Below, piece after piece: positions 6,495 through 51,993 of a stretch of 64,000 bases of DNA. Source of the stretch: Rathayibacter oskolensis (GTDB lineage: Bacteria; Actinomycetota; Actinomycetes; Actinomycetales; Microbacteriaceae); NCBI RefSeq assembly GCF_900177245.1, contig NZ_FXBM01000002.1, positions 558,001-622,000 on the forward strand, given 5' to 3'. The notes beneath the pieces are model-generated. The model made no database searches, was not told where the DNA came from, and saw only the letters and a list, made by a program, of their open reading frames with translations. Made by a program: the position numbers and the translations under genes. The stretch's first letter is position 1; every line of letters starts with the position of its first letter.

Positions 6495-8264
6495 GTGAGA
6501 GAACCCCGCGCCTCCGCCGCCCCCCTCGAGATCGACAGGCACCGGCCCGCGCGGTCGGCCCTGGGCCTGCTCGGCCGCTACCGGCGCCGGATCGTCGTCG
6601 CGGTCCTGTTCTTCGCCGTGAAGGACACTCCGCTCTGGCTGCTGCCGGTCGTCACGGGCGCGATCATCGACGTCGTCGTGGCGGGAGGGCCGCCCTCGAC
6701 GCTGTGGCTCTGGACCGCGATCGCCCTGATCGCGCTGCTGCAGAACTACCCGAACCACGTGATGTACACCCGGCTCTACATGAGCGCCGTCCGCCAGACC
6801 GGCACGGACCTGCGCAATGCGCTCGCGGAGCGGCTCCAGAACCTCTCGATCGGGTTCCACACCCGCGCGAGCTCGTCGATCGTGCAGACGAAGGTCGTCC
6901 GCGACGTCGAGAACGTCGAGACGATGCTGCAGCAGGTCGCGCATCCGCTGCTCTCGGCCGTGATGGTCGCGATCGGCGCCGTGGTGATGACGGCCCTGAA
7001 CGTGCCGGAGTTCCTCCCCGTCTACGCCCTGGCCATCCCGCTGGCGGTGCTGCTGCGCGCGTTCCTCAGCGCCCGCTCGCGGCGGGGCAACGAGCTGTTC
7101 CGCCGCGAGGTGGAGCAGTTCTCGGCCCGGGTCGGCGAGATGGCGACCCTCATCCCGATCACGCGGGCCCACGGGCTCGAGCGCACGGCGGTCGATCGGG
7201 TCGCCGCGGGCGCCGAGGGCGTGCGGTCGGCCGGCTACAGCCTCGACCTCTTGAACGGACGCTTCGCGTCGCTGTCGTGGGTGGGCCTGCAGCTGCTCGG
7301 AGTCGGCTGCCTCGTCGCCGCCGCGTGGGCGTCGATCAGCGGATGGATCCCGATCAGCGCGGGCCAGGTGGTGCTGCTGAGCTCCTACTTCGCCCTGCTC
7401 ACCGGGGCCGTGACGAATCTGCTGATGCTGCTGCCGACCATCGCGAAGGGGACGGAGTCGGTGCGCTCGATCGGCGAGCTCCTGCAGGATCCCGACCTCG
7501 AGCACAACGAGGGCAAGGCGCGGGTCGACGAGGTGCGCGGAGCGATCCGCCTCGACCACGTCGGCTACCGCTACGACGATCGGACCGCCGCGATCGACGA
7601 CGTCGAGCTCGACGTGCGGCCGGGCGAGACGATCGCGTTCGTGGGCTCCTCCGGCTCGGGCAAGTCGACGATGCTCAACCTCGTGCTGGGCTTCCTGCGG
7701 CCCACGAGCGGCCGCATCCTCCTCGACGGACGCGACGCCGAGACTCTGGACCTGCGCAGCGTCCGCCGCTTCGTCTCGGTCGTGCCGCAGGACTCGGTGC
7801 TGTTCGAGGGCTCGATCCGCGAGAACGTCGCCTACGGACTCGGCGCTGTCCGCGACGACCGGGTCACCGCGGCGCTCCGGGACGCGAACGCGCTCGACTT
7901 CGTGCGGGCCCTCCCCGAGGGCTGGGACACCGTCGTCGGCGAGCGCGGCGCGCGGCTCTCGGGTGGGCAGCGTCAGCGCATCGCGATCGCCAGGGCGCTC
8001 GTCCGCGATCCCCGCGTGCTCGTGCTCGACGAGGCCACGAGTGCGCTCGACCCCGAGGCGGAGGCGCTGGTGCGCGAGGCGCTCGAGCGCCTGATGCGGG
8101 GACGGACGACGCTGGTCGTGGCGCACCGGCTCTCGACCGTCCGCTCCGCCGATCGCATCGTGGTGCTCGAGCACGGCCGCATCGTCGAGATCGGCGGGCA
8201 CGCCGAACTGCTCGCCGCGGGCGGCCGCTACGCCGTGCTGCACGCGGTGCAGGCCGGCGCCTGA
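6495..8264 (+). CDS. ABC exporter, fused membrane and ATPase domains
   Basis: This 589-residue half-transporter has an N-terminal six-helix exporter domain (about residues 30-330) fused to an ATPase. The ATPase has Walker A GSSGSGKST (about 384-392), the signature LSGGQRQRI (about 487), Walker B VLVLDEATSA (about 508) and the H-loop VVAHRLS. It would work as a homodimer to export lipids, peptides or drugs. The start is a GTG six bases after a -10-like element, with no separate ribosome-binding site in a leader, so a leaderless mRNA is likely. A LacI-type operator covers its -35 region, which suggests co-control with the adjacent sugar genes. The substrate is unknown. Confidence 0.93.
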   Translation: MREPRASAAPLEIDRHRPARSALGLLGRYRRRIVVAVLFFAVKDTPLWLLPVVTGAIIDVVVAGGPPSTLWLWTAIALIALLQNYPNHVMYTRLYMSAVRQTGTDLRNALAERLQNLSIGFHTRASSSIVQTKVVRDVENVETMLQQVAHPLLSAVMVAIGAVVMTALNVPEFLPVYALAIPLAVLLRAFLSARSRRGNELFRREVEQFSARVGEMATLIPITRAHGLERTAVDRVAAGAEGVRSAGYSLDLLNGRFASLSWVGLQLLGVGCLVAAAWASISGWIPISAGQVVLLSSYFALLTGAVTNLLMLLPTIAKGTESVRSIGELLQDPDLEHNEGKARVDEVRGAIRLDHVGYRYDDRTAAIDDVELDVRPGETIAFVGSSGSGKSTMLNLVLGFLRPTSGRILLDGRDAETLDLRSVRRFVSVVPQDSVLFEGSIRENVAYGLGAVRDDRVTAALRDANALDFVRALPEGWDTVVGERGARLSGGQRQRIAIARALVRDPRVLVLDEATSALDPEAEALVREALERLMRGRTTLVVAHRLSTVRSADRIVVLEHGRIVEIGGHAELLAAGGRYAVLHAVQAGA

Positions 8265-37433: not shown

Positions 37434-38438
37434 TCAGGCCGAGCGCCGGCGCACGCCGATCAGGACGACCAGGCGGAGGAAGCCGACCAGGAACGTGGCG
37501 AGCAGCGCCGCGAACAGCAGCAGCACTCCCGCCCCGGCGACCCAGGTGGTCTCTCCGGAGGTGCCCTGGATCAGGAACTCGAGGCAGAACAGCGCCAGCC
37601 CGGTGTAGGCGAGCACGAGCACGATGATCGTGCCGGGCCGCATCAGCCGCTCCCGGGGCGTCCGCCAGAGCGCGGGCGGCTCGAACGCGCGGCGGAAGAG
37701 CCGCAGCGTCAGCGTGCCGACCAGGCCGATCAGGGCCGTCGCGATCAGCACGATGCCCACCGCGCCGATCCCGCCGTCGGACACGTCCGCCATCGACAGG
37801 GCGAGTCCCGTCGCGGTCACCACGGCCCCGAGCACTCCCGCGATCATCGCCGCGAACATCCCGAAGCCGCCGCGCAGCACGCTCTCGCGCTCGGGCCGGG
37901 GGGTCAGCGGCGCGTCGACCACGCGCTGCGGCGCCGGCGGGCGGGGGGAGGCGGACTCGCTCGGTCCGCCCCGGCCGGATGCGGTCCCCTGCGTCTCGAC
38001 GACGTTCTCGCGAACGGGGATGTAGCGCAGCGGCGCCTCGATGCGCACCTCGGGTCGACCGCGGACGACGACCGTCGCGCCGACGCCGACGCCGCGCGGG
38101 AGGAGCGAGGGCGCGAGGAGCAGGGTGTCGCCGGAGCCGAGCGACCACTCGGCCGCGCGGGGCTCGGTGCCGTACCACTCCGCCGCCTGAGCGCCGCCCA
38201 GAGTGATCTCGATCGGTCGCCCGTCGAGGAAGGTCTCGGCGTCCAGATCGGTCCGGCCGAGGTTCCGCACCGTCGCGGACACCCGCCACCAGTCGTCGCC
38301 CGCGTGCGAGAGCAGCACCTCGACGTCGACCAGGGAGGCGGGCTTCGCGCGGCGTCGGCCCACCACGACCACGACGACCGCCGCGATCGCGACGAGCAGT
38401 CCGCCGAGCAGGCCCACGACGGCGACGATGATCTCCAT
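37434..38438 (-). CDS. Membrane protein of unknown function, divergent to tubulin-like operon
   Basis: This 334-residue protein has an N-terminal membrane anchor (IIVAVVGLLGGLLVAIAAVVVVVV). A soluble beta-rich domain follows (about 30-145; VDVEVLLSHAGDDWWRVSATVRNLGR). A proline-rich linker leads to four further hydrophobic segments, including MFAAMIAGVLGAVVTATGLAL and VGFLRLVVLIGV. GGGGGG before ATG 38438 serves as ribosome-binding site. No family is recognised. It shares a 142-bp divergent promoter region with the VWA/tubulin-like operon, so a functional link is possible but unproven. Confidence 0.75.
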   Translation of the reverse strand: MEIIVAVVGLLGGLLVAIAAVVVVVVGRRRAKPASLVDVEVLLSHAGDDWWRVSATVRNLGRTDLDAETFLDGRPIEITLGGAQAAEWYGTEPRAAEWSLGSGDTLLLAPSLLPRGVGVGATVVVRGRPEVRIEAPLRYIPVRENVVETQGTASGRGGPSESASPRPPAPQRVVDAPLTPRPERESVLRGGFGMFAAMIAGVLGAVVTATGLALSMADVSDGGIGAVGIVLIATALIGLVGTLTLRLFRRAFEPPALWRTPRERLMRPGTIIVLVLAYTGLALFCLEFLIQGTSGETTWVAGAGVLLLFAALLATFLVGFLRLVVLIGVRRRSA

Positions 38439-38497
38439 CCCCCCAGTCAACCAGTCGACGCCGCTCGGGCACTGCGAGGCGGCGGGCTCCCGAGGGT

Positions 38498-38526
38498 TTG
38501 GCCCCTCGCGGAGGGTTCTGCATACT
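38498..38526 (+). promoter_or_regulatory. Candidate promoter of the VWA/tubulin-like operon
   Basis: TTGGCC (38498-38503) and CATACT (38521-38526) are separated by exactly 17 bp and lie 55 bp before the first gene of the operon. This is a plausible housekeeping-type promoter. A GGAGGGTGGA ribosome-binding region follows. Confidence 0.45.
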
Positions 38527-38580
38527 GAAGCAGCCGCCCCCAACAGGGAGCGTTCAGCTGCGACAGCGGAGGGTGGAGCG

Positions 38581-38985
38581 GTGTCGACCGTGCGCAACCG
38601 GGCTCCCGTCGCCCGCCGGACCGCCAGCCCCCTGCCTCTCGTGCTGGGCGCGGCGGGCCTCGTGGCGAGCCTCGCGCTGGCCATTCTCGCCGCCTCCACG
38701 GCCGCCGCGCCGGTGCGAATCCTCGGCCTCTCGCTGCCCCTGGTCCGCGGCACGGCGGTGTGGATGAGCGTCGTCGGCTACCTGCTGACCCCGCTCCTCG
38801 TCTTCCTCGCGGCCGGCTGGGACCTGTCGAGCCAGCGCGCGAGCACCCTCCGCGACGCCCGGCACTTCGCTCCCGACCCGCGGCTCACTCGCGCACTCCT
38901 GTGGCTCTCCGGCGCCGCCCTCCTCCTCGGTGCGTGGCACGTGCTGAACATCAGCGTCCCGGTCTCCGAATGGCTGGGCACGTGA
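38581..38985 (+). CDS. Small membrane protein, first gene of tubulin-like operon
   Basis: This 134-residue protein has three hydrophobic segments: PLVLGAAGLVASLALAILAAST, TAVWMSVVGYLLTPLLVFLAAGW and ALLWLSGAALLLGAWHVLNI. A positively charged cytoplasmic loop lies between the last two. GTG 38581 follows a GGAGGGTGGA site. Its stop overlaps the GTG of the VWA gene (GTGA, 38982-38985), so the products are made together. No known family is recognised; a membrane scaffold or assembly factor for the VWA protein is a reasonable guess. Confidence 0.8.
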   Translation: MSTVRNRAPVARRTASPLPLVLGAAGLVASLALAILAASTAAAPVRILGLSLPLVRGTAVWMSVVGYLLTPLLVFLAAGWDLSSQRASTLRDARHFAPDPRLTRALLWLSGAALLLGAWHVLNISVPVSEWLGT

Positions 38986-41714
38986 TCCGCCGCGTGCTCG
39001 CGGTGGTCCTCGCCGCGCTCCTCCTCGTCCTGGGGTTCGGAGCGGCGGCACAGGCGCAGACCACCGCGGCCCCCTCCGCCTCCCTCACCGACATCGGCCG
39101 CGGCGCCATCGAGGATCTCCGCACCTGCCTCTCCTCCTCCGACGTGCTCAACGTCTACTACCTCGTCGACAACTCCGGATCGCTGAACACCGGGGGCGAG
39201 GACGGCCGCGGCTCCGACCCCGATGTCGCCCGCGCCGACATCCTCGCGGGCAGCCTCGCCGAGCTCGGCGGCCTCCGCGACGACCTGACCGTCAACTGGG
39301 GGGCCGCGTTCTTCAGCCGCGCGTTCGAGTCCGCGGTCGACTGGCGTCCGTGGACGGGCGACAGCCCGGCGGCGCTCGCCGACACCATCCGCGCGAAGAC
39401 CCCCGGCGGCGGCACGAACTGGCTCGCGGGGCTCCAGGGAGTGCAGTCCGCGCTGCAGAGCCAGCCGAGCGCCGGCTCCGCCTGCCAGCTCGTCGTCTGG
39501 CTGACCGACGGCGAGATCGACCTCGGCTCGGCGCAGGCCACCGCGGATGCCACCAACGCGCTCTGCGGCGCGCGCATCGACCCCGACGGCGACGAGCCGG
39601 GCGGCTTCGGCGTGCTCGCGGCGCTCCGCCAGGCCGGAGTCGTCGTGATCGGCACCCTCCTCGCCGACGGCGAGCAGCGCGAGCAGGCGCGGGTGATGTG
39701 GCCGCTGGTCGAGGGCAGCGGCACCTACGGAGGCGGCACCGCCACCTGCGGACCGGCGACGGCCCCCGAGGGCTCGGTCCGCGGCGCCGTCGTCGACGCC
39801 TCCGATCCGGCGGCGCTCGCCTCCGTGTTCCTCGAGCTCGGGTCTCGGATCGCCGGCGGATCCCAGCAGGGCCTCGCGGCCGACGGCACCTTCTGGATCG
39901 ACGGCGGCGTCTCGAGGGTGCAGGCCGTGGTCACCGAGAGCGACTGGACGCTGCAGCCCCCCGCCGGCTCCGGACTCGGCACCCTGACCGCGGCGTCCCC
40001 CGAGGTGCAGGTCAGCGGCTCCTCCGGCGCGCAGCTCGTCGAGCTCGCCGTCGACCGCCCGGAGCTGCGGGGGCAGTGGACGCTCACCGGCGCCGACAGC
40101 GTCTTCTACTTCTCCGATCTGCGGATCGTCTTCGACGACGCCAACCAGGTCGAGCGCGCGGCCGACGGCTCCCTCGCGGCGAGCCTGACCGCCCGCGTCG
40201 AGCACGCCGACGGCTCGCCGGCCGACCTCTCGGTCTTCGACCAGGCCGTCTTCACGGCGACCTCGACCGCCGACGGCAGCACCGCCGCGCTGCCCGACGC
40301 GCGCATCGACGAGGCATCCGGAGTGATCACCCTCCCGCTGCCCGCCGACGTGACCGCCTCCGAGATCCTCGTGACCGCCTCCGTCGACCCGCTGACCACC
40401 GCGCCGCACCAGGTCGCCCTCGCGCCCGTCACCACGCAGCAGAGCATCACCACCGTCCTGCCGGCCGAGTTCCCCAGCGTCTCGTCACCGCTCGCTCTGA
40501 GCGAGCTCACCGGGGCCGAGGGCCGGGCGGAGGGGACCCTCGCGATCCAGGGACCGTCGAGCGGCGGCGGCGGCCAGGTCTGCCTGACCGAGCCGCCGAC
40601 CGTGACGAGCGACAACGCCGATCGCTCCGACAGCTGGATCTGGACCTTCGCGGTCGACGGCGACGTCCTCGCGCCGGGTACCTGCGTCTTCGCCGAGCCG
40701 GGTGCGACCACCGCCCTCACGGTCACCGCCGAGAACCCCGTCGCCGCCTACTCCTCGGTCACCGCCGCCCTCCCGCTCGACATCCGCACCGCCACCGGCA
40801 GCAGCGCGCCGCAGACGATCGCGCTCTCGTTCCCCTCGACCTTCCCCGTGAACGCGGCCGCGATCGGGCTGGTCTCGCTGGTGCTGCTCCTGCTCGGGGT
40901 GCTGCTCCCGCTCCTCCTGCTCTGGCTCTTCAACCGCCGCACCACGCGGATCGCGATGGAGGGTTCGTTCCAGCGCGGCACGATCCCGGTCGAGATCACC
41001 CCGGAGGCGGTGCGCCCGGCGCCGACGGCCGGTCGCCTCGACGAGCGCTTCCGCTACCTCCGCAGCGAGACCGGGGTGCGCGAGCTGCCCGACGCCGAGC
41101 TCGGGCGCCTCCGCGCGCACGTGCCGTGGTGGCCGCTGAAGGCGCCGAGCTACCGGGTCGGTCCGCCCGCGAACGGCGTGGTGGTCGCCTCCCGCACCGG
41201 CACCCGCAGCACCTCGGCCGGGCGGCCGCTGCCGAGCGGCGGAGTGGCGTTCTCGGCCCTCCCGCTCGACTCCTTCTGGGCGATCGTCGTCCCCGAGCAC
41301 GAGCTCGACCGGCCCCGGAGCGAGGACCCCGTCCGCGCCACCGCGGTGCTCTACCACCGTGTCGACCGCGACGACGAGGCGCAGTACGAGCGCCGCCTCG
41401 ACGACCTGCTCCGCGACTCCGGCGCGCCCGCCTGGGTCACCGTCGACACCCTCCGCCGCGAGCGGGCTGCGAGCCGGCCCGAGCCGAAGGAGCCGCCGCG
41501 CACCGAGCCCCGCGACGGCGTCCCACCGCGCGTCGGCGCGTCGTCCGCCCCCTCCCGTCCGGGCTCGCCCCCGCGGCCCGGCACCCCGCCGCCGCGACCG
41601 GGCGGTGCTCCCGGCCGACCGAGCTCGCCGCCCCCGCCACGGCCCGGAGGCGCGCCGCCGCCCCCGCCGCCCGGCCGCTCCGGCCCCCGAACCCCTCCGC
41701 CCCGCGGTCGCTGA
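38982..41714 (+). CDS. Secreted/membrane VWA-domain protein with proline-rich tail
   Basis: This 910-residue protein starts at GTG 38982, overlapping the preceding stop. It has a signal peptide (residues 1-26, ending AAAQAQ). A von Willebrand A domain (about 55-290) carries the metal-site motif DNSGS (63-67), the Thr of GGGTNW and LTDGEID. Beta-rich domains follow, and a membrane helix (about 625-650, ends LLLLWLFNRR) leads into a cytoplasmic region of about 260 residues. That region ends in a roughly 75-residue Pro/Arg/Gly tail. The outside-VWA, inside-tail layout suggests it links an extracellular partner to the cytoplasmic tubulin-like protein encoded next. Confidence 0.88.
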   Translation: MIRRVLAVVLAALLLVLGFGAAAQAQTTAAPSASLTDIGRGAIEDLRTCLSSSDVLNVYYLVDNSGSLNTGGEDGRGSDPDVARADILAGSLAELGGLRDDLTVNWGAAFFSRAFESAVDWRPWTGDSPAALADTIRAKTPGGGTNWLAGLQGVQSALQSQPSAGSACQLVVWLTDGEIDLGSAQATADATNALCGARIDPDGDEPGGFGVLAALRQAGVVVIGTLLADGEQREQARVMWPLVEGSGTYGGGTATCGPATAPEGSVRGAVVDASDPAALASVFLELGSRIAGGSQQGLAADGTFWIDGGVSRVQAVVTESDWTLQPPAGSGLGTLTAASPEVQVSGSSGAQLVELAVDRPELRGQWTLTGADSVFYFSDLRIVFDDANQVERAADGSLAASLTARVEHADGSPADLSVFDQAVFTATSTADGSTAALPDARIDEASGVITLPLPADVTASEILVTASVDPLTTAPHQVALAPVTTQQSITTVLPAEFPSVSSPLALSELTGAEGRAEGTLAIQGPSSGGGGQVCLTEPPTVTSDNADRSDSWIWTFAVDGDVLAPGTCVFAEPGATTALTVTAENPVAAYSSVTAALPLDIRTATGSSAPQTIALSFPSTFPVNAAAIGLVSLVLLLLGVLLPLLLLWLFNRRTTRIAMEGSFQRGTIPVEITPEAVRPAPTAGRLDERFRYLRSETGVRELPDAELGRLRAHVPWWPLKAPSYRVGPPANGVVVASRTGTRSTSAGRPLPSGGVAFSALPLDSFWAIVVPEHELDRPRSEDPVRATAVLYHRVDRDDEAQYERRLDDLLRDSGAPAWVTVDTLRRERAASRPEPKEPPRTEPRDGVPPRVGASSAPSRPGSPPRPGTPPPRPGGAPGRPSSPPPPRPGGAPPPPPPGRSGPRTPPPRGR

Positions 41715-41752
41715 CAGCGACTCCCTCAGCGACACGACGAAAGCAGATCCTC

Positions 41753-44700
41753 ATGCTCAAACCCTTCCTCCTCATCGGAGTCGGCGGCTCCGGCGGCAAG
41801 ACCCTCCGCGGCATCAAGTACCAGCTCGAGCTCAAGCTCCAGCAGCTGGGCTGGGAGGGCGGGATCCCGGCCGCCTGGCGCTTCCTGCACTTCGACACCC
41901 CCACCGTCCAGGACGGCATGGAGTACCAGGCGCCGTTCCTGCCGCGCCAGGACTACCGCGGCCTCGTCAGCACGGCGGCGACGTTCGACATCGTGCACGG
42001 CTCGATCACGAGCGCGCACGCGACGAACAACGCGATGCGCCACGACATCGAGCGCCAGCTGCCCGACCCGAGCCTGGTCAAGGTCGACGTCACCAAGGGC
42101 GCGGGCCAGTACCGCGCCGTCGGCCGCGCGGTCGCGCTCGCCGCGACGAAGGAGATCGCGCAGGCCGCGCGCATCGCGATCGGCCGCATGAACGACGCGG
42201 AGGCGCTCGCCGAGCTGCAGACGCTGGGCCAGCGCCTGCGCGCCCGAGACGACGGCGGCGACGGCAGCCCGATCGTCATCGTGATCTCGTCGGTCGCCGG
42301 CGGCTCGGGGGCCGGGCAGTTCCTCGACATCATCGAGATCGTCAAGTCGACCGCCAAGCAGTACCCGTGGTCGAACCAGTTCTTCAGCATGCTCTACGCG
42401 CCCGACGTCTTCGACCAGCTGAACGTCACCGCCGGCATGCCCGGCAATGCGCTCGCCTCGATCTCCGAGACCATGAACGGCTTCTGGACCGACACTCCGT
42501 CGCCGGCGACCCTCGAGCTGCTGCGCACCAAGGGCGTCGCGCCCTCGTACGGCGCCGCGATGGACCGGGTCGGCGCCGCCTACCCCTTCATCGTCGGCCG
42601 CAGCAACAGCAAGGTCACCTTCGAGGACCAGAACGCCGTCTACGACGCCGTCGCCACCAGCCTCACCGCGTGGATGATCGACGAGCGCGTGCAGGACGAC
42701 ATGATCGCCTACTCCTCGGGCAACTGGCAGGCGCGCTCGGCCGCGAACGTGCTGCCCGACAACTCCGGGCTGATGAGCCCCGCGCACCACTCGCCGCCCT
42801 TCTCCTCGATCGGCTTCGGCCGCGTCACCCTCGGCCGCGAGCGGTTCCTCGAGTACTCGGCCGAGCGCTTCGCCCGCTCGGCGATCGACCGGATGCTGTT
42901 CGCGCACGCCGAGGAGGATCCGCAGTTCGAGCGGATGACCGAGCGCGAGTACATCGAGAAGTCGGCCGACAGCGAGTACCAGCGCTTCCTCCGCGAGCTG
43001 CGCCTGAACGAGGAGACCGCCGAGCACAACGACGTCACCGACGCGCTGCGCGACACCGCCACTCTCGACCTGATCAAGGCCGAGCTGCAGCGCACCGCCG
43101 ATGACGAGCTGAGCCGCCCCGAGTCGCTCGACCGCCAGGGCGGCACCGACATCACCACCTGGACCGACCGCCTGGTCAACGAGTACACCCGCGCCGCCCC
43201 GCGCCTGCTCCAGCGCGACCGCGAGGCGCGCCAGCAGCGCCTCGACGAGTGGACGCGCACCATGCCCGGCCACATCCTCGAGACCGTCTCGCGCTACGTC
43301 GCGCAGGACGGTCTGCCGGTCGTCGTCGCGATGCTCCGCCGCCTCGAGCGCGGCCTCAAGGGCACCGTCGACGCCCTGCGCGTCGAGGCGCGCCAGCACG
43401 AGGAGTGGGTGGGCACGCTCAGCTCGCTCGTCTCGGACGAGCTGCGCACCGCCGCCAACCAGCAGTCGATCCGCCCCGATCAGGAGGCGGTGCAGTTCGC
43501 GATCCAGCGGCTCGGGCAGGCGCTCGAGTGGTCCTCCGAGGCGGCGCTGCGCGACTCCGCGTGGGCCCTGCTCGCCGAGCTGCGCGAGACCTTCCTCGGT
43601 CCGCTCGCCGACTACCTCGACGGCTCCCGCACCGCACTGCTCCAGCGCGTGCACTCGCGCAAGACCAGCGACGACCGCGAGAACGCCTACGACTTCTGGC
43701 CGCGCCGCGTCGACGCCACCGTGCCGCGCAAGTACAACCCGGCGCCGAACGAGCGGATGCTCGTCGAGCCCGAGAAGTACCCAGGCGAGTTCGAGAAGCT
43801 GGTGCGCGCCTCCGTCGACGGCGACGCCAAGTACCAGGACGCCGTGCTGCGGGTGCTCACCGACCAGCTCGTCGGGGTCAGCCCCGACACCGAGTCGGAG
43901 GCGGGCGCCTGGTCGCTCGTCGGCAACCCGCGCACGTGGCGGCCGACCGTCACCGCCGACCCGGCCGTCGCGAACCCCGCGCAGCGCGCCTCCTTCGAGC
44001 TCGCCACCGACCCCGAGACCTACATCACGCGGGCCCGCGCGTGGATGAAGCGCGACGGCACCCCCTTCGCCGCCTACATCGGCGAGGACCTGCTCGGCTT
44101 CTTCGACTCCGAGATCCTGCCCCCTGACGTCTTCGCCGCCCGGCGCGACCGCTACCGCGAGCAGCTCCAGGCCGCCCTCGGCGCGAGCGAGCCGCTGGTG
44201 AAGCTGAACCCGGCGCTGCTGCGCGCCGTGCACGGCAAGGCGATCAACCAGGACACCTCACTGGTGTTCAGCTCGATCCCGTTCCGCGCGGGCACCGAGA
44301 TGTACGAGGTCACCAAGGGCGTCCTCGGGCAGATGGGCGTCTGGGACGACGCGACCAGCGAGTCGTGGTTCCAGGACCAGAAGGTCGACGGCATCGAGGT
44401 CTTCGCGATGTCGGGCTTCCCCTACCAGCCGATCGTCATGGACTCGGTGATGGAGCCGATCGCCCGTGGCTGGCTCGCGCAGTCGAACACCCAGGACAGC
44501 CGCGAGGCGTTCTGGAAGTTCAAGCGCGCGCGCCTGCTCGGCGAGAGCATCCCCGCCGACCCGCGGGCGATCGCGTCGATGATCCGCGGCTGGTACGTCG
44601 CCAAGGCTCTCGGCCGCCTCGCCGTCGACTCGTCGCAGGGCGAGAAGGGCCCCAAGCTCTCGGTCTGGGACCCGTCGACCCGCTCCTTCGCCGACTTCCC

Positions 44701-45151
44701 GCACCCGCTGCTGAGCGAGCGCAACGCGCGCGCCGCCGACTTCCCCGGAGTCGTCCTGCAGTCGCTCGCGATCGCGATGGCCCTCTGCAACGTCGAGGGC
44801 ACTCTCGCGCCGCTCGCCGCCTACCGCGTGCTGATCGCCCTCGGTCGGCGCGACGACGACACCGAGCTGGCCGAGTGGCTGCAGAGCGGCGTGCTGCCCA
44901 CCGGCGCGCCGGTCCCGGAGGAGTCCCGCGCGGGCACCGCCGACGGCGACCTCGCGTCGCGCCGGGCCGCCGTGCAGGCCTACCTCACGAACGAGCTGGC
45001 CCGGTTCGACAGCGACATCGTGCAGCAGGACGAGATGGTCTCGGTCTACGACTACCCGGTCACCTGGGAGATGCGCGACCAGTTCCAGGAGGCGATCCGC
45101 GGGCTCGTCTCGTCGGTGCTGTCGACCGGGCCCCGCGACACCGGAGTGTGA
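41753..45151 (+). CDS. Tubulin/FtsZ-superfamily-like GTPase (Tubulin_2 type)
   Basis: This 1132-residue cytoplasmic protein begins with a nucleotide-binding loop GVGGSGGKT (residues 9-17). It has VTKGAGQYRAVGRAVA (113-128) and the tubulin-like G-box VISSVAGGSGAGQ (about 177-189), which corresponds to GGGTGSG of FtsZ/tubulin. About 650 further residues are helical and charged, far beyond FtsZ length. Tubulin-like proteins of this type are known to occur with VWA proteins in predicted membrane-remodelling systems. Here it is flanked by a VWA membrane protein and a large membrane protein. GTP binding and polymerisation are inferred from the motifs only. The ATG at 41753 has a weak GAAAG site. 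Confidence 0.85.
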   Translation: MLKPFLLIGVGGSGGKTLRGIKYQLELKLQQLGWEGGIPAAWRFLHFDTPTVQDGMEYQAPFLPRQDYRGLVSTAATFDIVHGSITSAHATNNAMRHDIERQLPDPSLVKVDVTKGAGQYRAVGRAVALAATKEIAQAARIAIGRMNDAEALAELQTLGQRLRARDDGGDGSPIVIVISSVAGGSGAGQFLDIIEIVKSTAKQYPWSNQFFSMLYAPDVFDQLNVTAGMPGNALASISETMNGFWTDTPSPATLELLRTKGVAPSYGAAMDRVGAAYPFIVGRSNSKVTFEDQNAVYDAVATSLTAWMIDERVQDDMIAYSSGNWQARSAANVLPDNSGLMSPAHHSPPFSSIGFGRVTLGRERFLEYSAERFARSAIDRMLFAHAEEDPQFERMTEREYIEKSADSEYQRFLRELRLNEETAEHNDVTDALRDTATLDLIKAELQRTADDELSRPESLDRQGGTDITTWTDRLVNEYTRAAPRLLQRDREARQQRLDEWTRTMPGHILETVSRYVAQDGLPVVVAMLRRLERGLKGTVDALRVEARQHEEWVGTLSSLVSDELRTAANQQSIRPDQEAVQFAIQRLGQALEWSSEAALRDSAWALLAELRETFLGPLADYLDGSRTALLQRVHSRKTSDDRENAYDFWPRRVDATVPRKYNPAPNERMLVEPEKYPGEFEKLVRASVDGDAKYQDAVLRVLTDQLVGVSPDTESEAGAWSLVGNPRTWRPTVTADPAVANPAQRASFELATDPETYITRARAWMKRDGTPFAAYIGEDLLGFFDSEILPPDVFAARRDRYREQLQAALGASEPLVKLNPALLRAVHGKAINQDTSLVFSSIPFRAGTEMYEVTKGVLGQMGVWDDATSESWFQDQKVDGIEVFAMSGFPYQPIVMDSVMEPIARGWLAQSNTQDSREAFWKFKRARLLGESIPADPRAIASMIRGWYVAKALGRLAVDSSQGEKGPKLSVWDPSTRSFADFPHPLLSERNARAADFPGVVLQSLAIAMALCNVEGTLAPLAAYRVLIALGRRDDDTELAEWLQSGVLPTGAPVPEESRAGTADGDLASRRAAVQAYLTNELARFDSDIVQQDEMVSVYDYPVTWEMRDQFQEAIRGLVSSVLSTGPRDTGV

Positions 45152-45153
45152 GC

Positions 45154-48100
45154 ATGGCTGACGGATCCCGGCCCGACGGCTTCTGGCCCGACGGCAAGGC
45201 GGCGATCGTCCTGCTGCCCAGCGGCGCGCAGGGCGAGACCCTGCTCGAGCTCGCGGCGCAGTGGACGAAGACCGGCCTGCTCGGGCAGGCCCTCTGGGTG
45301 CTGCCCGAGCACGTGAAGACCTCGGCCTACGCGCCTCCGCAGATCGAGGCCGTCGTGCTCGGGGTGGGCGCCGACCTCGAGTCGGTCGCGATCTCGGTCG
45401 ACCTCTTCGAGGCGCTCGCGGAGGAGCAGCTCGGCCTGGTGCGACTGGTCACCCTCCGCTCGGCCCTGCCCGAGCGCGAGAGGGACGAGGCCCAGGACGC
45501 GGTCGCCGATCTCGTCAGCCGCTGGGTGCGCACCTCGATGCCGCTGCCGAACCCCTCCGCGACCCTCGCCGACCAGACCACCGAGCTGCGCCGGGTGACC
45601 CTGATCTGCGCGCCGACCGCCTTCCAGCTGCGCGAGCGGGTGGAGGCGCACGAGCACGGCTTCGTGGTCATCGCCTCGCCCGAGGACCGCTCGAGCCCGT
45701 GGTCGGGCGACGCCTTCGTGCGCGACGACGAGCGCTTCACCGGCTTCACCCTCACCCACCTGGCGAGCGTCGCCGGGCTCTGGAACGGCGTGACCGACGG
45801 CAGCGTCGAGCTGTTCTCGCGGGAATCCGACGGAGGCGACTCCGTCTGGATCTCGCGCGTGTTCCTCAACGCGGTGCTCACGGAGTCGCTCGGCCGCCGC
45901 GTCGCCGCCGGCGTGCTGCAGAACGCGGCCCGCCCCGACTCCCTGCTGATCGACCCCAGCGTGAGCCCGCCGCCGCCCGGCACCGCATTCATCGACGACG
46001 CCCAGATCGGCGGCTACGTCGACCGCATGGTCGAGGGCGCCCTGCGCCTCGACGGCGGCGCGCTCACCTACGACTCCGCCGGTGCGCTCGACGTGCCGGA
46101 GCCCGCCCGCATCGGCTTCTTCGCGCAGATCGGCCGCTTCTTCGCGTTCTCTGCCGGCAAGCTCGTGCAGATGCCGCGCTGGAGCGCCCGCTGGCTGTCG
46201 TCGAGCGCCAACCGCTCGATGACCCGCGCCCTGCACACCTCCGAGGGCTCCGCGGTCGTCGGCTCCTCGTTCGACGAGGTGCTCGATGTGCGCGACCGGC
46301 TGCTGCTGGCCGATCTCGACCGTCTCCGCGACGACGAGGGCCGTGCCCGCGTCGAGGCCGGAGCCCCCGCCGCGATGGCGCACGTGCGCACGACGCCCCA
46401 GCTGTGGGCGGGCCTGCGCCAGCTCGTGTTCGGCGCGCTCGACGGCAGCGCCGACCTGCGCGACGCCGGCTTCGCGCCCGTGGAGGGTGCCGTGCCGGTG
46501 TTCGGCCGGGTGGGCGACGTCCTCGCCCTGCCCGACGGGCCGTGGGAGTCGTCGGGGCACGACGTGCCGCCGGGGTTCCCCGCTCGGGTCGACTGGTACG
46601 CGCTGGCGCTCGCGGATCCGCGGGTGCAGCTGCAGAACTGGGTGACGGCGGGGGAGGCGTCGGTTGCCGCGGAGGTGCCTGTCGCCGAGCCGGTGCCTGT
46701 CGGGGCCGACGCGTTCGACCCGCCCGCCCAGGAGTCCCTCGTCGAGTCCGCCGCCGAGCCCGGCGTGGTGCGCATCGAGGTCCCCGCGGAGGAGCCTGTC
46801 GTGCCCCCTGTGGACCCCGAGGCCCGCCGCTCCGGCCGCCTCCAGGCCCTCGCCGAGTACGACCTCTGGGCCGGCACGCAGAGCTCGTCCTTCGTCTGGC
46901 GGTTCCTCGACCGCATCGCCGGCGAGCGTCGCCGCGCCGAGGACGAGGTCTCCTACCTCGTCGGCGAGATCGACGCGATCCGTCCGCAGCGCCCCGGAGA
47001 GCTCCTGGCCCTGCGCCGCGACTTCCACCGCTCGATGCTCGTCGGCTGGGTCACCGTCGTCGCCCTGGCGCTCGCCGTGGGAGTCGGCATCTGGTTCGTC
47101 AACGACTACGCCGCGCGCGACTCCGGCTCGTTCGAACCGGGCCTGATCACATCGGTGCTGCAGTGGGTGCTCCTGGGTCTCGGAGGCGCGGCGCTGTTCA
47201 TCACGCTCGTCTCGCTCGTCCGCTACCACGCCGGCTGGTCGCGCTTCGAGCGCCGCATCGAGGTCGAGCGCACGCGCCTCGCCCACTACGGAGCGAGTGC
47301 CAGGCGTGCCCGTGAGGAGGCCGCGCGCCTCCGCTCGGTGCACCGCCAGGCCGTGGACTGGCTGGTCCTGCTGTCGAAGGCGATCCACCGCCCGTGGCAC
47401 GTGCCCGAGGTGTGGACGCAGCACGAGACCTTCGACGTCGAACGCGGCCACATGCCCTTCGCCGTGCGCCTCGCCACCGTCAGCGGCGAGGAGACCGCCG
47501 CCGTCGCCCGCATGCGCGCCGCGATGACGTCGAAGCTCGTCCGCCGCGGCTGGCGTCACGAGGCCTTCGAGGCGTTGGTTCAGGAGATGGCCGCCGACTA
47601 CGGAGCCGGCCAGGGCTTCGGGCTCTCGGCCCTCGACGAGGACCTCCCGCATTCGTCGAACCACACGCGCCGGATGCTGCTGCGTGCGTTGGACGACGAG
47701 TCCCTGCTCACGCGGATCGCCGCCCCGCGCCTGGCCGACATCGTCGCCTCCGTTCAGCGCGACGAGGAGTCGATCGCCCGCCCGCGCGTGCGGCCGATGG
47801 GTGTGAATCCTCTGAACGCCCTGCGCCGCCCCGAGGACTACGACGGCGTCGAGCTCGACCTCCCGTGGGACGACTTCCTGCTCGAGTCGCTGACCCGCGC
47901 CGACCCGATGACCCCGGTGAGCGCCACCGTGCTGACCGAGCTGCAGGTGGGGGAGCGGTACCACGAGCGCGTGACGAGCTTCCTCGTGGCGCCGTCGCGG
48001 CTGCAGGAGCGGCTGCGGTTCGACCCGGCCGCGCCGATCCACGTGGTGCCGTACGAGGGCGCGACGGGGGCGCCGGTGGATCTGGTGTGGCGGGTCGACG

Positions 48101-48198
48101 TCGTCGGTCCGGTGCCGCGCGCGGCGATCCGGCTGTGGGATGGGGCGCGCTCTGCGTCGGAGCCCGTGGTCGCACCTGAAGGCGACTCGGGGATCTAG
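45154..48198 (+). CDS. Large two-helix membrane protein of tubulin-like operon
   Basis: This 1014-residue protein follows the tubulin-like gene by 2 bp. About 600 N-terminal residues lack a signal peptide and are presumably cytoplasmic (KAAIVLLPSGAQGETLLELAAQW). Two closely spaced membrane helices follow (about 627-649 and 665-690). Coiled-coil-like charged segments flank them (GERRRAEDEVSYLVGEI and RFERRIEVERTRLAHYGASA). A second cytoplasmic domain of about 300 residues ends the protein. No known domain is recognised. The topology fits a membrane platform or adaptor for the tubulin-like protein. Confidence 0.85.
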   Translation: MADGSRPDGFWPDGKAAIVLLPSGAQGETLLELAAQWTKTGLLGQALWVLPEHVKTSAYAPPQIEAVVLGVGADLESVAISVDLFEALAEEQLGLVRLVTLRSALPERERDEAQDAVADLVSRWVRTSMPLPNPSATLADQTTELRRVTLICAPTAFQLRERVEAHEHGFVVIASPEDRSSPWSGDAFVRDDERFTGFTLTHLASVAGLWNGVTDGSVELFSRESDGGDSVWISRVFLNAVLTESLGRRVAAGVLQNAARPDSLLIDPSVSPPPPGTAFIDDAQIGGYVDRMVEGALRLDGGALTYDSAGALDVPEPARIGFFAQIGRFFAFSAGKLVQMPRWSARWLSSSANRSMTRALHTSEGSAVVGSSFDEVLDVRDRLLLADLDRLRDDEGRARVEAGAPAAMAHVRTTPQLWAGLRQLVFGALDGSADLRDAGFAPVEGAVPVFGRVGDVLALPDGPWESSGHDVPPGFPARVDWYALALADPRVQLQNWVTAGEASVAAEVPVAEPVPVGADAFDPPAQESLVESAAEPGVVRIEVPAEEPVVPPVDPEARRSGRLQALAEYDLWAGTQSSSFVWRFLDRIAGERRRAEDEVSYLVGEIDAIRPQRPGELLALRRDFHRSMLVGWVTVVALALAVGVGIWFVNDYAARDSGSFEPGLITSVLQWVLLGLGGAALFITLVSLVRYHAGWSRFERRIEVERTRLAHYGASARRAREEAARLRSVHRQAVDWLVLLSKAIHRPWHVPEVWTQHETFDVERGHMPFAVRLATVSGEETAAVARMRAAMTSKLVRRGWRHEAFEALVQEMAADYGAGQGFGLSALDEDLPHSSNHTRRMLLRALDDESLLTRIAAPRLADIVASVQRDEESIARPRVRPMGVNPLNALRRPEDYDGVELDLPWDDFLLESLTRADPMTPVSATVLTELQVGERYHERVTSFLVAPSRLQERLRFDPAAPIHVVPYEGATGAPVDLVWRVDVVGPVPRAAIRLWDGARSASEPVVAPEGDSGI

Positions 48199-49067
48199 TG
48201 GTGGGAGCGCCTCCGCCGCCCCGCCCGGGAGCGTTGCGGCGCGTGGCGCCCCCGGTGCTCCGCGGTAGGGTGCCGGCGCGAGTCGTGCGTCGGCGGGCGC
48301 CCTGGTGGGCGTTCGTCGTCGCCGCGGTGGCTGCTGCAGCTGTCGCGTTCGCCGTGGTCGGAGTCGGCGAAACGGTCGGCGCGCCGGGTGCTATCGGGAC
48401 AGCACCGGCATCTCCCTCCGAGGCTGTTGCTTCTGCGCCCGATTCGCCTGTCGCTTCACCGACCGCCACTACTGCCGCTTCGCCTGCTGCTGCTGTCGGC
48501 TCCGCCGCCGAGGCCCTCGCCGCCCTCGCGTCGATCCCGAAAGACGATGGCTTCGCCGACATCCCCTACGACCGCGACCTCTTCGGCCAGGCGTGGTCCG
48601 ACGTCGACCGCAACGGCTGCGACACCCGCAACGACATCCTCGGCCGCGACCTCCTCGATCCAGTGTTCAAGCCCGGCACCCGCGACTGCAAGGTCCGCTC
48701 GGGCCTCTTGATCGACCCCTACGACGGCACAGCAGTGTCGTTCGTCTCCGGCTCCGACACCTCCCGCCTCGTCCAGATCGACCACGTCGTCGCCCTCGGC
48801 TGGGCCTGGCACCACGGCGCCTGGGCCTGGACCGACGAGCAGCGCCTCGCCTTCGCGAACGACCCGGCGAACCTCGTCGCGGCCTCGGAGGAGACGAACC
48901 AGTCGAAGAGCGACGCCGGGCCAGGGGAGTGGCTGCCGCCGGAGCGGGAGCTGCAGTGCGGGTACGTGGAGCAGTTCGTGGGGGTGGTGAGCGGGTACGG
49001 GCTGGCGATCGGTGCAAGCGATCGGGCGGCGGCGAACGTGGCATTGACTGATTGCTTGGCCAATTGA
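48198..49067 (+). CDS. Membrane-anchored HNH nuclease (DUF1524-like)
   Basis: This 289-residue protein has an Arg/Pro-rich N-terminus, a membrane helix (about 36-58) and an Ala/Ser/Thr-rich stalk. The C-terminal HNH domain shows DH (195-196) in VQIDHVVALGWAW, Asn225 in NDPANLVAA, and NQSKSDAGPGEW (234-245), matching secreted DUF1524-type nucleases. Four cysteines (141, 164, 254, 286) suggest disulfides, so the domain is probably extracytoplasmic. The GTG start overlaps the stop of the preceding gene by one base (TAGTG), tying it to the tubulin-like operon; GTG 48201 is an alternative. Its link to the rest of the operon is unexplained. Confidence 0.88.
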   Translation: MVGAPPPPRPGALRRVAPPVLRGRVPARVVRRRAPWWAFVVAAVAAAAVAFAVVGVGETVGAPGAIGTAPASPSEAVASAPDSPVASPTATTAASPAAAVGSAAEALAALASIPKDDGFADIPYDRDLFGQAWSDVDRNGCDTRNDILGRDLLDPVFKPGTRDCKVRSGLLIDPYDGTAVSFVSGSDTSRLVQIDHVVALGWAWHHGAWAWTDEQRLAFANDPANLVAASEETNQSKSDAGPGEWLPPERELQCGYVEQFVGVVSGYGLAIGASDRAAANVALTDCLAN

Positions 49068-49166
49068 CGCACGCTTTCGCAATGACTAGTCGGCAGCCTT
49101 CGGCGAAAAAGATCAATCATGAGCGATGCTCGCCATAAGCGACGCGCATTCTCCTAATGTCATTAA

Positions 49167-50252
49167 GTGCCCGTTCTCACAGTAGAAGATCTCACGCTCG
49201 AATTGAACATTTCTCGGGCCGATGCCTTTGAGCGGTTCTTCGACTTTTTTGGAGCGTCAGAGCTTCGTGAGGAATGGTCGTTTTCTAAGGGCGCGTACTC
49301 GGAGTTCGCGGCAAGAAACCCGGTTCCGCCGCAGTCGCCACGGCGTTTCGATTTAGTCGTCGGAGCTACGGTGCGGCGAGCCTCCCTGCTACGTGCGTTC
49401 GGCGGCAGGTCGCAGCGCGGAATCACCGTTTCGTCCTCGGCCTCGGATATCTTTGCGTTCACAAATCCAGCGGAGGGGGCCTCCTATGGGTACGACCAGC
49501 ATGAAGGTCCCCGCCCTGATGGTTCATACGCGTACACTGGCGAAGGGCCTGAAGGAGATCAAGAGTTTACTCACGGTAATCGCCTGCTTCGCGATGCGGA
49601 GGACCTGGGTCAAACTATCCGCCTTTTCTATGCAAAGGGCCCACGGGTAACGTACCTCGGCGCCTTCACGAACGGCGATCCGAAGTACCAATACGAGACC
49701 ATTTCGGCCGGAGATAAGAAGCCGCGCCAAGCTCTCATTTTCAATCTTGTGCCCGTTGATGCCGACGTCTCGTCTCTTGCGATCATCCCGGCGACAGGAG
49801 GGGAAGGGGTCAGGCGGTATAAATGGGTTGAGCCGGAATCTTCCGATGCGTTCTATGCGACTACTGGCGAAGCCGGCGAGGTTCGATCCATCACTAGGAC
49901 CGAATTTCTCCTGCAAGCTGATTTTGGTGCTTGGTTGGAGCGTTCTGGAACGCCTCCAGAACGGATCGGCCTGAATGTGGGCGTTGGATTCGTAAGTCCT
50001 GATTTCTACGTTCCTGCCACAACCTGGATTGTCGAAGCAAAAAAGTCAACTGCTCGACCATTCGTGCGCATGGCAATTGGTCAGGTTCTTGATTACGCGA
50101 ATCTGGCACGACGGAACCAGCTCCCAGCTATTCCTATGATATTACTTCCCAGTCGGCCCGAAGCAGATTTGATTGAGTTGATTTCTAGCTTAGGCATATT
50201 GCTTGCGGTCAGATCTGAGGATGGCTTCGCTGTTGTGGATTCGCCTGCGTGA
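49167..50252 (+). CDS. Probable type IV (modification-dependent) restriction endonuclease
   Basis: This 361-residue protein has an SRA-like region (about 60-200) with GITVSSSASDIFAF, YGYDQHEG, YAYTGEGPEGDQEFTHGNRLL and ETI, resembling the SRA domain of ScoMcrA-type enzymes that read modified DNA. It is followed by a PD-(D/E)XK nuclease core: Asp279 (SPDFYV), Glu290-x-Lys292 (IVEAKKS) and Gln306 (IGQVLDYA). It starts at GTG directly after an in-frame stop, and no good ribosome-binding site is visible. GC is markedly lower than in its neighbours and rare codons are frequent, indicating recent transfer. It probably cleaves foreign methylated or phosphorothioate DNA. Confidence 0.75.
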   Translation: MPVLTVEDLTLELNISRADAFERFFDFFGASELREEWSFSKGAYSEFAARNPVPPQSPRRFDLVVGATVRRASLLRAFGGRSQRGITVSSSASDIFAFTNPAEGASYGYDQHEGPRPDGSYAYTGEGPEGDQEFTHGNRLLRDAEDLGQTIRLFYAKGPRVTYLGAFTNGDPKYQYETISAGDKKPRQALIFNLVPVDADVSSLAIIPATGGEGVRRYKWVEPESSDAFYATTGEAGEVRSITRTEFLLQADFGAWLERSGTPPERIGLNVGVGFVSPDFYVPATTWIVEAKKSTARPFVRMAIGQVLDYANLARRNQLPAIPMILLPSRPEADLIELISSLGILLAVRSEDGFAVVDSPA

Positions 50253-50628
50253 GCTTGCGCACGGCGGGCAGGTCAGGCGGCGCCCAGTTCAACGCAGATA
50301 GATCCGCTCGCGTCAGCCAGCGGAGTTCATCATGATCTGTACTCGCCACTGGAGGTCGATCGCAGAGACTAGCCCACCAGCAGCTCAAGCGAATAATTCG
50401 GCCGTCCACGGCGGTATCGTCGCTGCTAAGCATTCCGCCGATTCTCACGCGAATCGCAAGCTCTTCCAGAATCTCGCGTTCGAGCGCCCGCTTGGGTTTC
50501 TCGCCAGGCTCAATCTTTCCGCCAGGGAACTCCCACTGGCCGCCGGCTGCCTTCTCGGGCCGCCGGCGACCCGCGAGAATCAGGTTCCCGTCGGAGATGA
50601 CTGCGGCAACGACCTCAAGAATTTGCAC
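50209..50628 (-). CDS. NUDIX hydrolase (MutT-like)
   Basis: This 139-residue pyrophosphohydrolase has the NUDIX box GGKIEPGEKPKRALEREILE plus EELAI, which carries the REILEEL metal-binding core. The N-terminal VVAAVISDGNLILAGRRRPEK and C-terminal DHDELRWLTRADL are typical of MutT/NudG proteins that clean oxidised or modified nucleoside triphosphates. The start is GTG with GGAG 3 bases upstream. Its last 44 bp overlap the 3' end of the restriction gene in convergent orientation, and it shares that gene's low GC. A role alongside the restriction enzyme is possible but not established. Confidence 0.88.
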   Translation of the reverse strand: MQILEVVAAVISDGNLILAGRRRPEKAAGGQWEFPGGKIEPGEKPKRALEREILEELAIRVRIGGMLSSDDTAVDGRIIRLSCWWASLCDRPPVASTDHDELRWLTRADLSALNWAPPDLPAVRKLTQANPQQRSHPQI

Positions 50629-50929
50629 CTCTCCATCTTGGTGTGCCGGCGAGCGGCCCGCCGACTGCGCTTCGATGCCTCGCCGTGTGCGCGTTAGCGA
50701 CGTTCTTGGACCTGCAACTGGTCGTGCAGGCCGACGAAGCCTGAGGAAGCTTCATTGGTTGGTTTTTGTGCCCGGCCGCCACGTGCCGCACAGCTGCAAT
50801 GGCGTGGTCAGCGACGGACGAATCGCGAGAAGAATGCAGGGACGCGTGCGTTTCCCGCATCCGTAGGACCCCGAACTGCGGGTTCGTGCCGTTCCGCGAC
50901 GGCGCGAAGTGTGCGGTGTTGTGTCCAGT
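50629..50929. other. Intergenic stretch with no recognisable gene
   Basis: About 300 bases between the NUDIX gene and the DUF3140 gene. Composition changes from moderate GC to the high GC of the genome. Short frames here lack codon bias and ribosome-binding sites. It may be the scarred right edge of the acquired low-GC segment; no repeat or integrase was seen. Confidence 0.5.
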
Positions 50930-51271
50930 TCACTTCTTGAGCGGGTCGTTCCCCCAGTTCATCAGCGAGTACCGCCACTTCGTCTCCGTCACGTCGCCCG
51001 ACGGCCGCTGCTTCGAGTGCCGGGCCACGTACGCCGTGACCTTCTTCATGTGCGCGTAGTCGTCATCGGTGAGGTCGGCCTGCTTGGTGCCGAGGATGTC
51101 GACGATGCGGCGGCCGCTCTCGTGGCCGGTGGACTCGCCTCCGCTTGCCGGCTTCTGGCCGACCTCCTTGGACTCGTCCTTCGCCAGCCAGTCCTCGATC
51201 TGCTTCACGGTCATGTTCACGGCGTCTTGGAACTCGTCGCGGATCGTGTGCTTCTCGTCGTCTGTGGTCAT
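50930..51271 (-). CDS. DUF3140-domain protein
   Basis: This 113-residue soluble protein has the motifs DEFQDAVNMTVKQIEDWLA, ESTGHESGRRIVDILGTK and DLTDDDYAHMKKVTAYVARHSKQRP...WRYSLMNWGNDPLKK, characteristic of the DUF3140 family found in bacteria and fungi. The function is unknown. The ATG at 51271 has an AGGACG site. It is divergent from a small membrane protein gene across a 154-bp region. Confidence 0.88.
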   Translation of the reverse strand: MTTDDEKHTIRDEFQDAVNMTVKQIEDWLAKDESKEVGQKPASGGESTGHESGRRIVDILGTKQADLTDDDYAHMKKVTAYVARHSKQRPSGDVTETKWRYSLMNWGNDPLKK

Positions 51272-51425
51272 CGTCGTCCTGCCTCTGCTCGCGACCCAGG
51301 GAAGGGGTACGCCTCCACTCGAGCGCCCCGTCGCCGAGAGGTCAAGCCCCATGCCCTCGCGCACCCGCCCACGTACCGTCGAAGACGTCCGCATTCGCGT
51401 GACCACCAGCAGAGAAGAGGCAGTC

Positions 51426-51980
51426 ATGCCCTCACGCAACACGCTCGTCCGCAGCCTCCACGACCTCGGTGCCGCCGCCTGGTTCGGAGGCTCCCTCATG
51501 GGCGCCGTCGGCCTCAACGGAGCCGCGTCCACCTCGTCCGACCCGGCCGAGCGCCTCCGCCTCGCCTCGAACGGCTGGGCCCGTTGGACTCCGGTGCAGC
51601 TCGCCGCGATCGCCGCGCACGGCGTCGGAGGCATCGGCCTCATCCTCGCCAACAAGACGCGCCTCGCCAACCAGCAGGAGAGCCGCACCAACACGATCGT
51701 CAAGACCGTCGTGACCGGCCTCGCCGGCGCCGCCTCGGTGATCGCCGCCATCGCCGGTGCGACTCAGGCGAAGCACGCCGACGAGGGCGCCAAGGGCGTC
51801 ACCGAGGCGTCGCCCAGCAACTCGCCCGAGCTGACGACTGCGCTGCGCGTGCAGAAGGTGACGCAGTGGGCGATCCCCGTCCTCACCGCCGTCATCATCA
51901 TCCTCGGCGCCCAGCAGGGCGAGCAGCAGCGTCCGATCAAGGGCCTGTTCGAGACCACGGCCCGCATGTTCCGCAAGTAA
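51426..51980 (+). CDS. Small membrane protein of unknown function
   Basis: This 184-residue protein has four hydrophobic segments: LGAAAWFGGSLMGAVGLNG, VQLAAIAAHGVGGIGLILA, VVTGLAGAASVIAAIAGA and WAIPVLTAVIIILGA. The cytoplasmic C-terminus is basic. A GAAGAGG site precedes the ATG. No characterised family was recognised. A 93-bp hairpin element follows 13 bp after the stop. Confidence 0.8.
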   Translation: MPSRNTLVRSLHDLGAAAWFGGSLMGAVGLNGAASTSSDPAERLRLASNGWARWTPVQLAAIAAHGVGGIGLILANKTRLANQQESRTNTIVKTVVTGLAGAASVIAAIAGATQAKHADEGAKGVTEASPSNSPELTTALRVQKVTQWAIPVLTAVIIILGAQQGEQQRPIKGLFETTARMFRK

Positions 51981-51993
51981 GGACTCGCCGTCG

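Follow-up and report, generated by a model that had tools for sequence, protein, structure and literature searches.

A GAP1-less FtsZl1 tubulin-VWA operon of Rathayibacter oskolensis: an accessory chromosomal block with a frequent GmrSD_C/HNH nuclease neighbour

FtsZ-like 1 (FtsZl1) proteins, the literature name for Pfam family Tubulin_2 (PMC2875224, PMC9871819), are described in the accessible text of PMC2875224 as belonging to the FtsZ-tubulin superfamily but strongly diverged, and as occurring in diverse bacteria and archaea. Operons joining them to VWA proteins have been predicted to remodel membranes (Makarova and Koonin 2010, PMC2875224), and, according to the accessible part of PMC7159879 (Kaur et al. 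2020), actinobacterial tubulin-VWA loci with GAP1/double-GTPase genes are predicted conflict systems. Here we describe a related operon in 64,000 nucleotides of Rathayibacter oskolensis (assembly GCF_900177245.1, contig NZ_FXBM01000002.1, positions 558,001 to 622,000; hereafter the window), where five consecutive open reading frames on the plus strand, at 38581-49067, encode a small membrane protein, a VWA protein, an FtsZl1 tubulin-like protein, a large two-helix protein (p5) and a GmrSD_C/HNH nuclease. The tubulin-VWA core is of an already published, predicted kind; an earlier sequence-only reading of this locus had named predicted membrane-remodelling systems of tubulin-superfamily and VWA proteins as known background. 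What is new is the GAP1-less layout, the frequent nuclease neighbour, and the absence of the whole block, nuclease included, from two Rathayibacter genomes.

The tubulin-like protein matches Tubulin_2 (PF13809) over residues 6-378 of 1132, with 132.8 bits against a cut-off of 27. T1- and T4-like glycine loops (GVGGSGG and AGGSGAG) are both found in it, and the T4-like residues S180, A182, G183, G184 and G186 are unchanged in 19 of 19 aligned sequences, four of which start too far in to include T1. A profile of 13 FtsZ proteins gave a colinear but weak alignment over the T3/T4 stretch (P 0.005, probability 7%) and no alignment with the C-terminal part (P 0.76). Because an ordinary FtsZ is matched in 13 of the 14 genomes examined, the tubulin-like protein is unlikely to be the division protein. 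A Protein Data Bank (PDB) sequence search with the tubulin profile, at E up to 1, returned five chance-level matches, two of them TubZ-type (0.23 and 0.88). Phage records contained no relative that we could find; plasmid records contained two, 25% identical, both on Rhodococcus plasmids of more than 1 Mb.

The VWA gene shares an operon with the tubulin gene in the window, and its family is labelled in 44 of 49 tubulin loci. The protein, which could alternatively start at ATG 38970 (the numbering used here), matches Pfam VWA_2 at 9.7e-5 with 23.4 bits, under the curated cut-off of 27 bits; it carries the MIDAS-type motif DNSGS, and a motif search finds MIDAS in 37 of 44 family members, the window counted. 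Hydropathy indicates an N-terminal signal-like helix and a helix at 623-656, followed by a tail with 41% proline across the final 70 residues; a further hydrophobic stretch at 213-231 may be merely the VWA-domain core. Membrane helices are likewise predicted in the small membrane protein and in p5, at 626-651 and 664-683 in the latter. The window's p5 has no Pfam family above cut-off, and a PDB sequence search at E up to 1 gave only six chance-level matches, at 0.17 or more. Its close relatives occur in five loci, all in Rathayibacter, with best-segment identities of 80-92%, and in L096 and L097 its halves are two separate genes. SLATT-type two-helix effectors were considered as relatives and dropped: matches were scattered over 16 members, DUF4231 appeared in one (0.0033, sub-cut-off), and the window protein had none.

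The nuclease matches GmrSD_C (PF07510) with 47.2 bits against a cut-off of 23. From its N-terminus it consists of a basic, proline-rich tail, one predicted hydrophobic helix, a low-complexity linker and the nuclease domain. The motif PPPPRPG is common to this tail and to that of the VWA protein, and one may guess from it that the two tails bind a common partner. A PDB sequence search with the nuclease at E up to 1 gave no match, and no Pfam match to a GmrS-type domain was seen in the five operon proteins or in the protein encoded at 49167-50252. The third-position G+C content of the five genes is 0.83-0.98. Much of this agrees with the sequence-only reading, which had proposed a five-gene operon, with all five frames and starts as found here, a MIDAS-bearing VWA protein with a membrane helix and a proline-rich tail, a tubulin-superfamily member and an anchored HNH nuclease. 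It had counted three overlapping junctions. There are two, of 4 nucleotides (nt) between the small membrane protein and VWA genes (38985/38982) and of 1 nt between p5 and the nuclease (48198/48198), the VWA/tubulin (41714/41753) and tubulin/p5 (45151/45154) junctions being gaps of 38 and 2 nt. Its two-helix protein with coiled coils keeps the helices; the only hint of coiled coils comes from the long helices of a low-confidence model.

Nine of the 15 Rathayibacter genomes contain Tubulin_2; in samples of its family (Microbacteriaceae) and class the counts are 16 of 299 and 28 of 394. The genome of Corynebacterium glutamicum has matches to Tubulin_2, GAP1-N2 and GmrSD_C. In order to compare gene content, we surveyed 49 loci (the window and 48 others), each chosen for its tubulin gene; the layouts rest partly on a simple GC-frame gene caller, with missed or shortened genes such as the VWA gene in L004 and four tubulin starts. 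Layout I (21 loci, window included) has the order small membrane protein-VWA-tubulin-p5, often with the nuclease added; the small protein is labelled in some loci only, and L095, which ends early, was assigned by its tubulin alone. Rathayibacter shares this order with genomes elsewhere in its family and class, so it is not unique to this genome; uniqueness would have counted against the earlier reading. Layout II (seven loci) has the same core, then one further gene and GAP1-N2; one member, L103, also has DO-GTPase2 above cut-off and a TerD-domain gene at the end of the operon (7688-8239). Layout III (18 loci, in genomes of 4.9-11.2 Mb) has VWA and tubulin genes, a different large, mostly membrane-type protein and further paired genes. 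That large protein has no profile similarity to p5, which holds the same position, and the one layout-III member scanned gave a Pkinase match under its cut-off. Layout IV (three loci) consists of a more distant VWA gene, the tubulin gene and three other genes. Of the 34 genomes scanned for GAP1-N2, eight have it: all seven layout-II genomes at the tubulin locus, including G010, which has layouts I and II together, and one layout-III genome away from that locus. GAP1-N2 was matched in none of the 18 layout-I-only and three layout-IV genomes scanned, and the window's five proteins have neither a GAP1 Pfam match nor a double-GTPase match. Layout II agrees with the tubulin theme that the accessible text of PMC7159879 presents for actinobacterial GAP1-N2 conflict systems, and the window's layout is its GAP1-less sister.

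Of the layout-I loci, 19 extend far enough downstream to be judged (L004 and L095 end too early). In 11 of them, eight being Rathayibacter loci or the window, the nuclease follows directly on the same strand. It is nearby in another position or strand in three (L036, L089, L096). Among ten same-strand copies examined, the start could be placed in six, and in each of these a GTG lies 0-4 nt from where the p5 stop codon ends. Some loci of layouts II and IV carry the nuclease as well: in L103, L104 and L105 it comes right after the operon, and in L031 it is upstream and on the opposite strand. Counted by genome, it is within 15 kb of the tubulin gene in 12 of 19 with layout I, in the one with both I and II, in two of six with layout II and in two of three with layout IV. 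Outside layout III this amounts to 17 of 29 genomes against 0.43 expected, so the earlier reading's inclusion of the nuclease in the locus holds beyond chance; with Rathayibacter also set aside, it is 10 of 20 against 0.34 (P 2e-13, which presumes uniform placement and independent genomes). L044 has a second, shorter, anchor-less copy (769-1134) downstream of the first.

For a tree of the nuclease domain, 58 domains were taken (the window and 57 of 87 hits) and 11 non-adjacent ones without a motif match were dropped, which retained all 18 tubulin-adjacent and 29 of 40 non-adjacent domains. The resulting tree of 47 domains implies seven gains or losses of adjacency, against 14.6 in shuffles, and its well-supported branches force at least three. 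The window copy groups with other Rathayibacter ones, with L032 and, deeper, with L105 of layout IV. Adjacency is thus clustered in the tree, yet is not one unbroken lineage. The likely explanation is repeated recruitment of the nuclease beside tubulin operons, although losses may also have contributed.

The tubulin-VWA-nuclease operon is an accessory chromosomal block: two Rathayibacter genomes have its conserved flanks but cleanly lack what lies between them. In the tubulin-less G007 (L099), sequence resembling 38248-38438 is followed, after 92 bp, by a 39-bp match to 50257-50295 and, beyond it, by further matches to 50490-50641 and 50942-51984. G008 (L098) likewise lacks 38458-51405, with 249 bp between the flanks. 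The missing block covers the nuclease gene and the next gene, at 49167-50252. Restriction-type genes lie near some tubulin loci: a type IV mREase at L102, type I restriction genes at L104 and a PADLOC ZacC match at L094. The features of the block are collected in Table 1.

Table 1. Coordinates of the operon genes and of the presence/absence segment, as positions in the window
Feature	Position	Strand	Evidence
Small membrane protein, 134 aa, GTG start	38581..38985	+	Profile search labels relatives in 19/49 loci
VWA protein, about 910 aa	38982..41714	+	Signal-like helix, MIDAS DNSGS, membrane helix, proline-rich C tail
FtsZl1/Tubulin_2 protein, 1132 aa	41753..45151	+	PF13809 2.3e-38; glycine loops GVGGSGG, SSVAGGSGAG intact
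p5, 1014-aa two-helix protein, no Pfam family above cut-off	45154..48198	+	Hydropathy, profile searches
Anchored GmrSD_C/HNH nuclease, 289 aa, GTG start overlapping p5 stop	48198..49067	+	PF07510 2.7e-12
Presence/absence segment	38439..50256	.	Comparison with tubulin-less relative L099

Among the FtsZl1 tubulin-VWA systems of actinobacteria, the operon represents a layout without GAP1. Our tentative reading, which we hold to be possible rather than probable, is that it is an accessory envelope-spanning conflict system, directed mostly to defence against invaders, with a surface-tethered nuclease. We favour it because of the family identity, the conserved order, the nuclease proximity, the patchy presence, the empty sites, the nearby restriction-type genes and the published prediction for the sister systems (PMC7159879, accessible part). 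In the mechanism we infer, the VWA ectodomain, outside the membrane, would use its metal site to bind a ligand on a surface or an invader, and p5 together with the proline-rich inner tail of the VWA protein would pass the signal to a GTP-dependent tubulin-like assembly beneath the membrane. This assembly could then gather or activate the membrane-tethered nuclease, which would cut DNA on the outer face, whether from phages, conjugation or lysed neighbours. A broader proposal, which we consider rather unlikely, is that FtsZl1 tubulin-VWA modules work as surface-sensing triggers of a cytoskeletal kind, with a tethered nuclease recruited time and again, and so form a cytoskeleton-driven anti-DNA barrier during phage or plasmid entry, with the window's operon as a minimal form lacking the GAP1/GTPase switch. 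If right, this would be an immune-type device based on a tubulin-like protein, and the nuclease link would offer a concrete biochemical output, DNA cutting at the envelope, together with a small gene set for probing the tubulin-VWA role.

Several observations weigh against an envelope-spanning conflict system. No nuclease lies nearby in five of the 19 layout-I loci (L034, L037, L038, L039, L097), and the nuclease is therefore a frequent accessory, not an obligatory fifth component of the complete trans-envelope cytoskeletal machine that the earlier reading supposed. Both the 15-kb cut-off and the division by layout that underlie the count of 17 in 29 genomes were picked after the loci had been inspected; layout III has the nuclease within that distance in none of 18 genomes, and all layouts together give 17 of 47. 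The nuclease family also occurs in the tubulin-less G007 and G008. In G007 one such gene (L100, 9658-10482) stands in a gene run in which a neighbour resembles, by eye, a single-strand DNA-binding protein. Structure models built from six rows (window and L001-L005) have low mean predicted local distance difference test scores, of 31 for the tubulin-like protein, whose rows are near-identical (AlphaFold2), and 35 for p5. The T6-H7 elements are not confidently identified in FtsZl1 proteins, according to the accessible text of PMC2875224, so GTP hydrolysis and polymerisation are unsure. Two sets of 111 proteins each were scanned with PADLOC models: those from the flanks (41,090 residues) matched 199 models, the controls (34,724 residues) 48. 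However, the flank set is larger in residues, and 90 of the 199 models match a single protein, which makes the defence-island signal around the tubulin loci soft and only suggestive. Finally, the accessible texts of PMC2875224, PMC7159879 and PMC9871819 contain no experiment on the FtsZl1 tubulin-VWA core and do not mention an HNH partner for it, subscription papers, preprints and supplements lying outside the search.

Among the alternatives, a machine for membrane remodelling or envelope shape survives best, even if we think it somewhat unlikely. The VWA protein, the tubulin-like protein and p5 would then shape or repair the envelope, and the nuclease would serve for clean-up or for feeding on external DNA. 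Such a role has been proposed for FtsZl1 operons in the accessible text of PMC2875224; it agrees with the helices predicted in the VWA protein, p5 and the small protein, and with the fact that the core remains at loci without the nuclease. However, a patchy presence with clean empty sites is ill-suited to a house-keeping role, and both the nuclease adjacency and the restriction-type genes near some loci fit a conflict system better.

An unlikely explanation is that the nuclease is a separate extracellular enzyme that sits in the same insertion hotspot as the tubulin operon and has no joint function with it. The varied strand and side of its copies (L031, L089, L096/L102, L103, L104) would suit such a hotspot, as would the commonness of the family, with 1-5 copies in 47 of 53 genomes scanned, and the absence of the nuclease from some loci. 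A hotspot accounts less well for the 11 of 19 layout-I copies placed directly downstream on the same strand, for the six of ten examined that start at the p5 stop, or for a proximity that in three layouts far exceeds uniform chance. Contact-dependent competition, with the tethered nuclease delivered to neighbours, would draw on the predicted anchor, the long linker and the VWA ectodomain, but it is very improbable: no consistent immunity gene stands beside the nuclease (a membrane-type neighbour of 101-135 aa, cluster 18, occurs in four Rathayibacter loci only), and no delivery apparatus was noticed, no search aimed at one having been made.

Some neighbouring genes deserve mention. The gene at 49167-50252, inside the presence/absence segment, encodes 361 aa in lower-GC DNA; its protein has a weak match to the PADLOC model mREase_IV (type IV methyl-directed restriction, 2.6e-5) and a match to phrog_15103, a phage family of no named function (6.8e-19). 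DNA resembling its 3' end recurs in L002, L005 and L042. On the other side of the block, a divergent gene at 37434-38438 encodes a 334-aa membrane protein that is also found in seven Rathayibacter tubulin loci; because it is present in the operon-less G008 too, it is probably outside the system. Two gene families (clusters 28 and 29) stand beside tubulin loci of three layouts, at L031 3110-5866, L035 16737-19734 and L094 17469-19900. One L035 member matches DUF6361 and one L094 member PLDc_2, the latter just under cut-off; the L094 genes adjoin the protein matching ZacC.

With the FtsZl1/VWA operons, as far as the accessible text of PMC2875224 describes them, the window's operon shares a tubulin-like family with a long C-terminal region, a MIDAS VWA partner and lineage-specific membrane proteins. 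It differs in that OmpA, kinase and P-loop GTPase are unmatched among its five proteins and an anchored HNH nuclease is added; the term HNH has no occurrence in PMC2875224. The actinobacterial GAP1-N2/double-GTPase systems, in the accessible part of PMC7159879, have in common with it a single tubulin gene with a long C-terminal region, a membrane VWA protein and, through layout II, a homologous core, whereas GAP1-N2, double-GTPase and fibronectin-type domains are unmatched among the five proteins. HNH is mentioned there once, for a different, NucA-centred system. With the GmrSD_C/DUF1524 HNH nucleases the window's protein shares the nuclease domain and the DH motif; in place of a GmrS-type part, of which none was found, it has a hydrophobic anchor and a linker.
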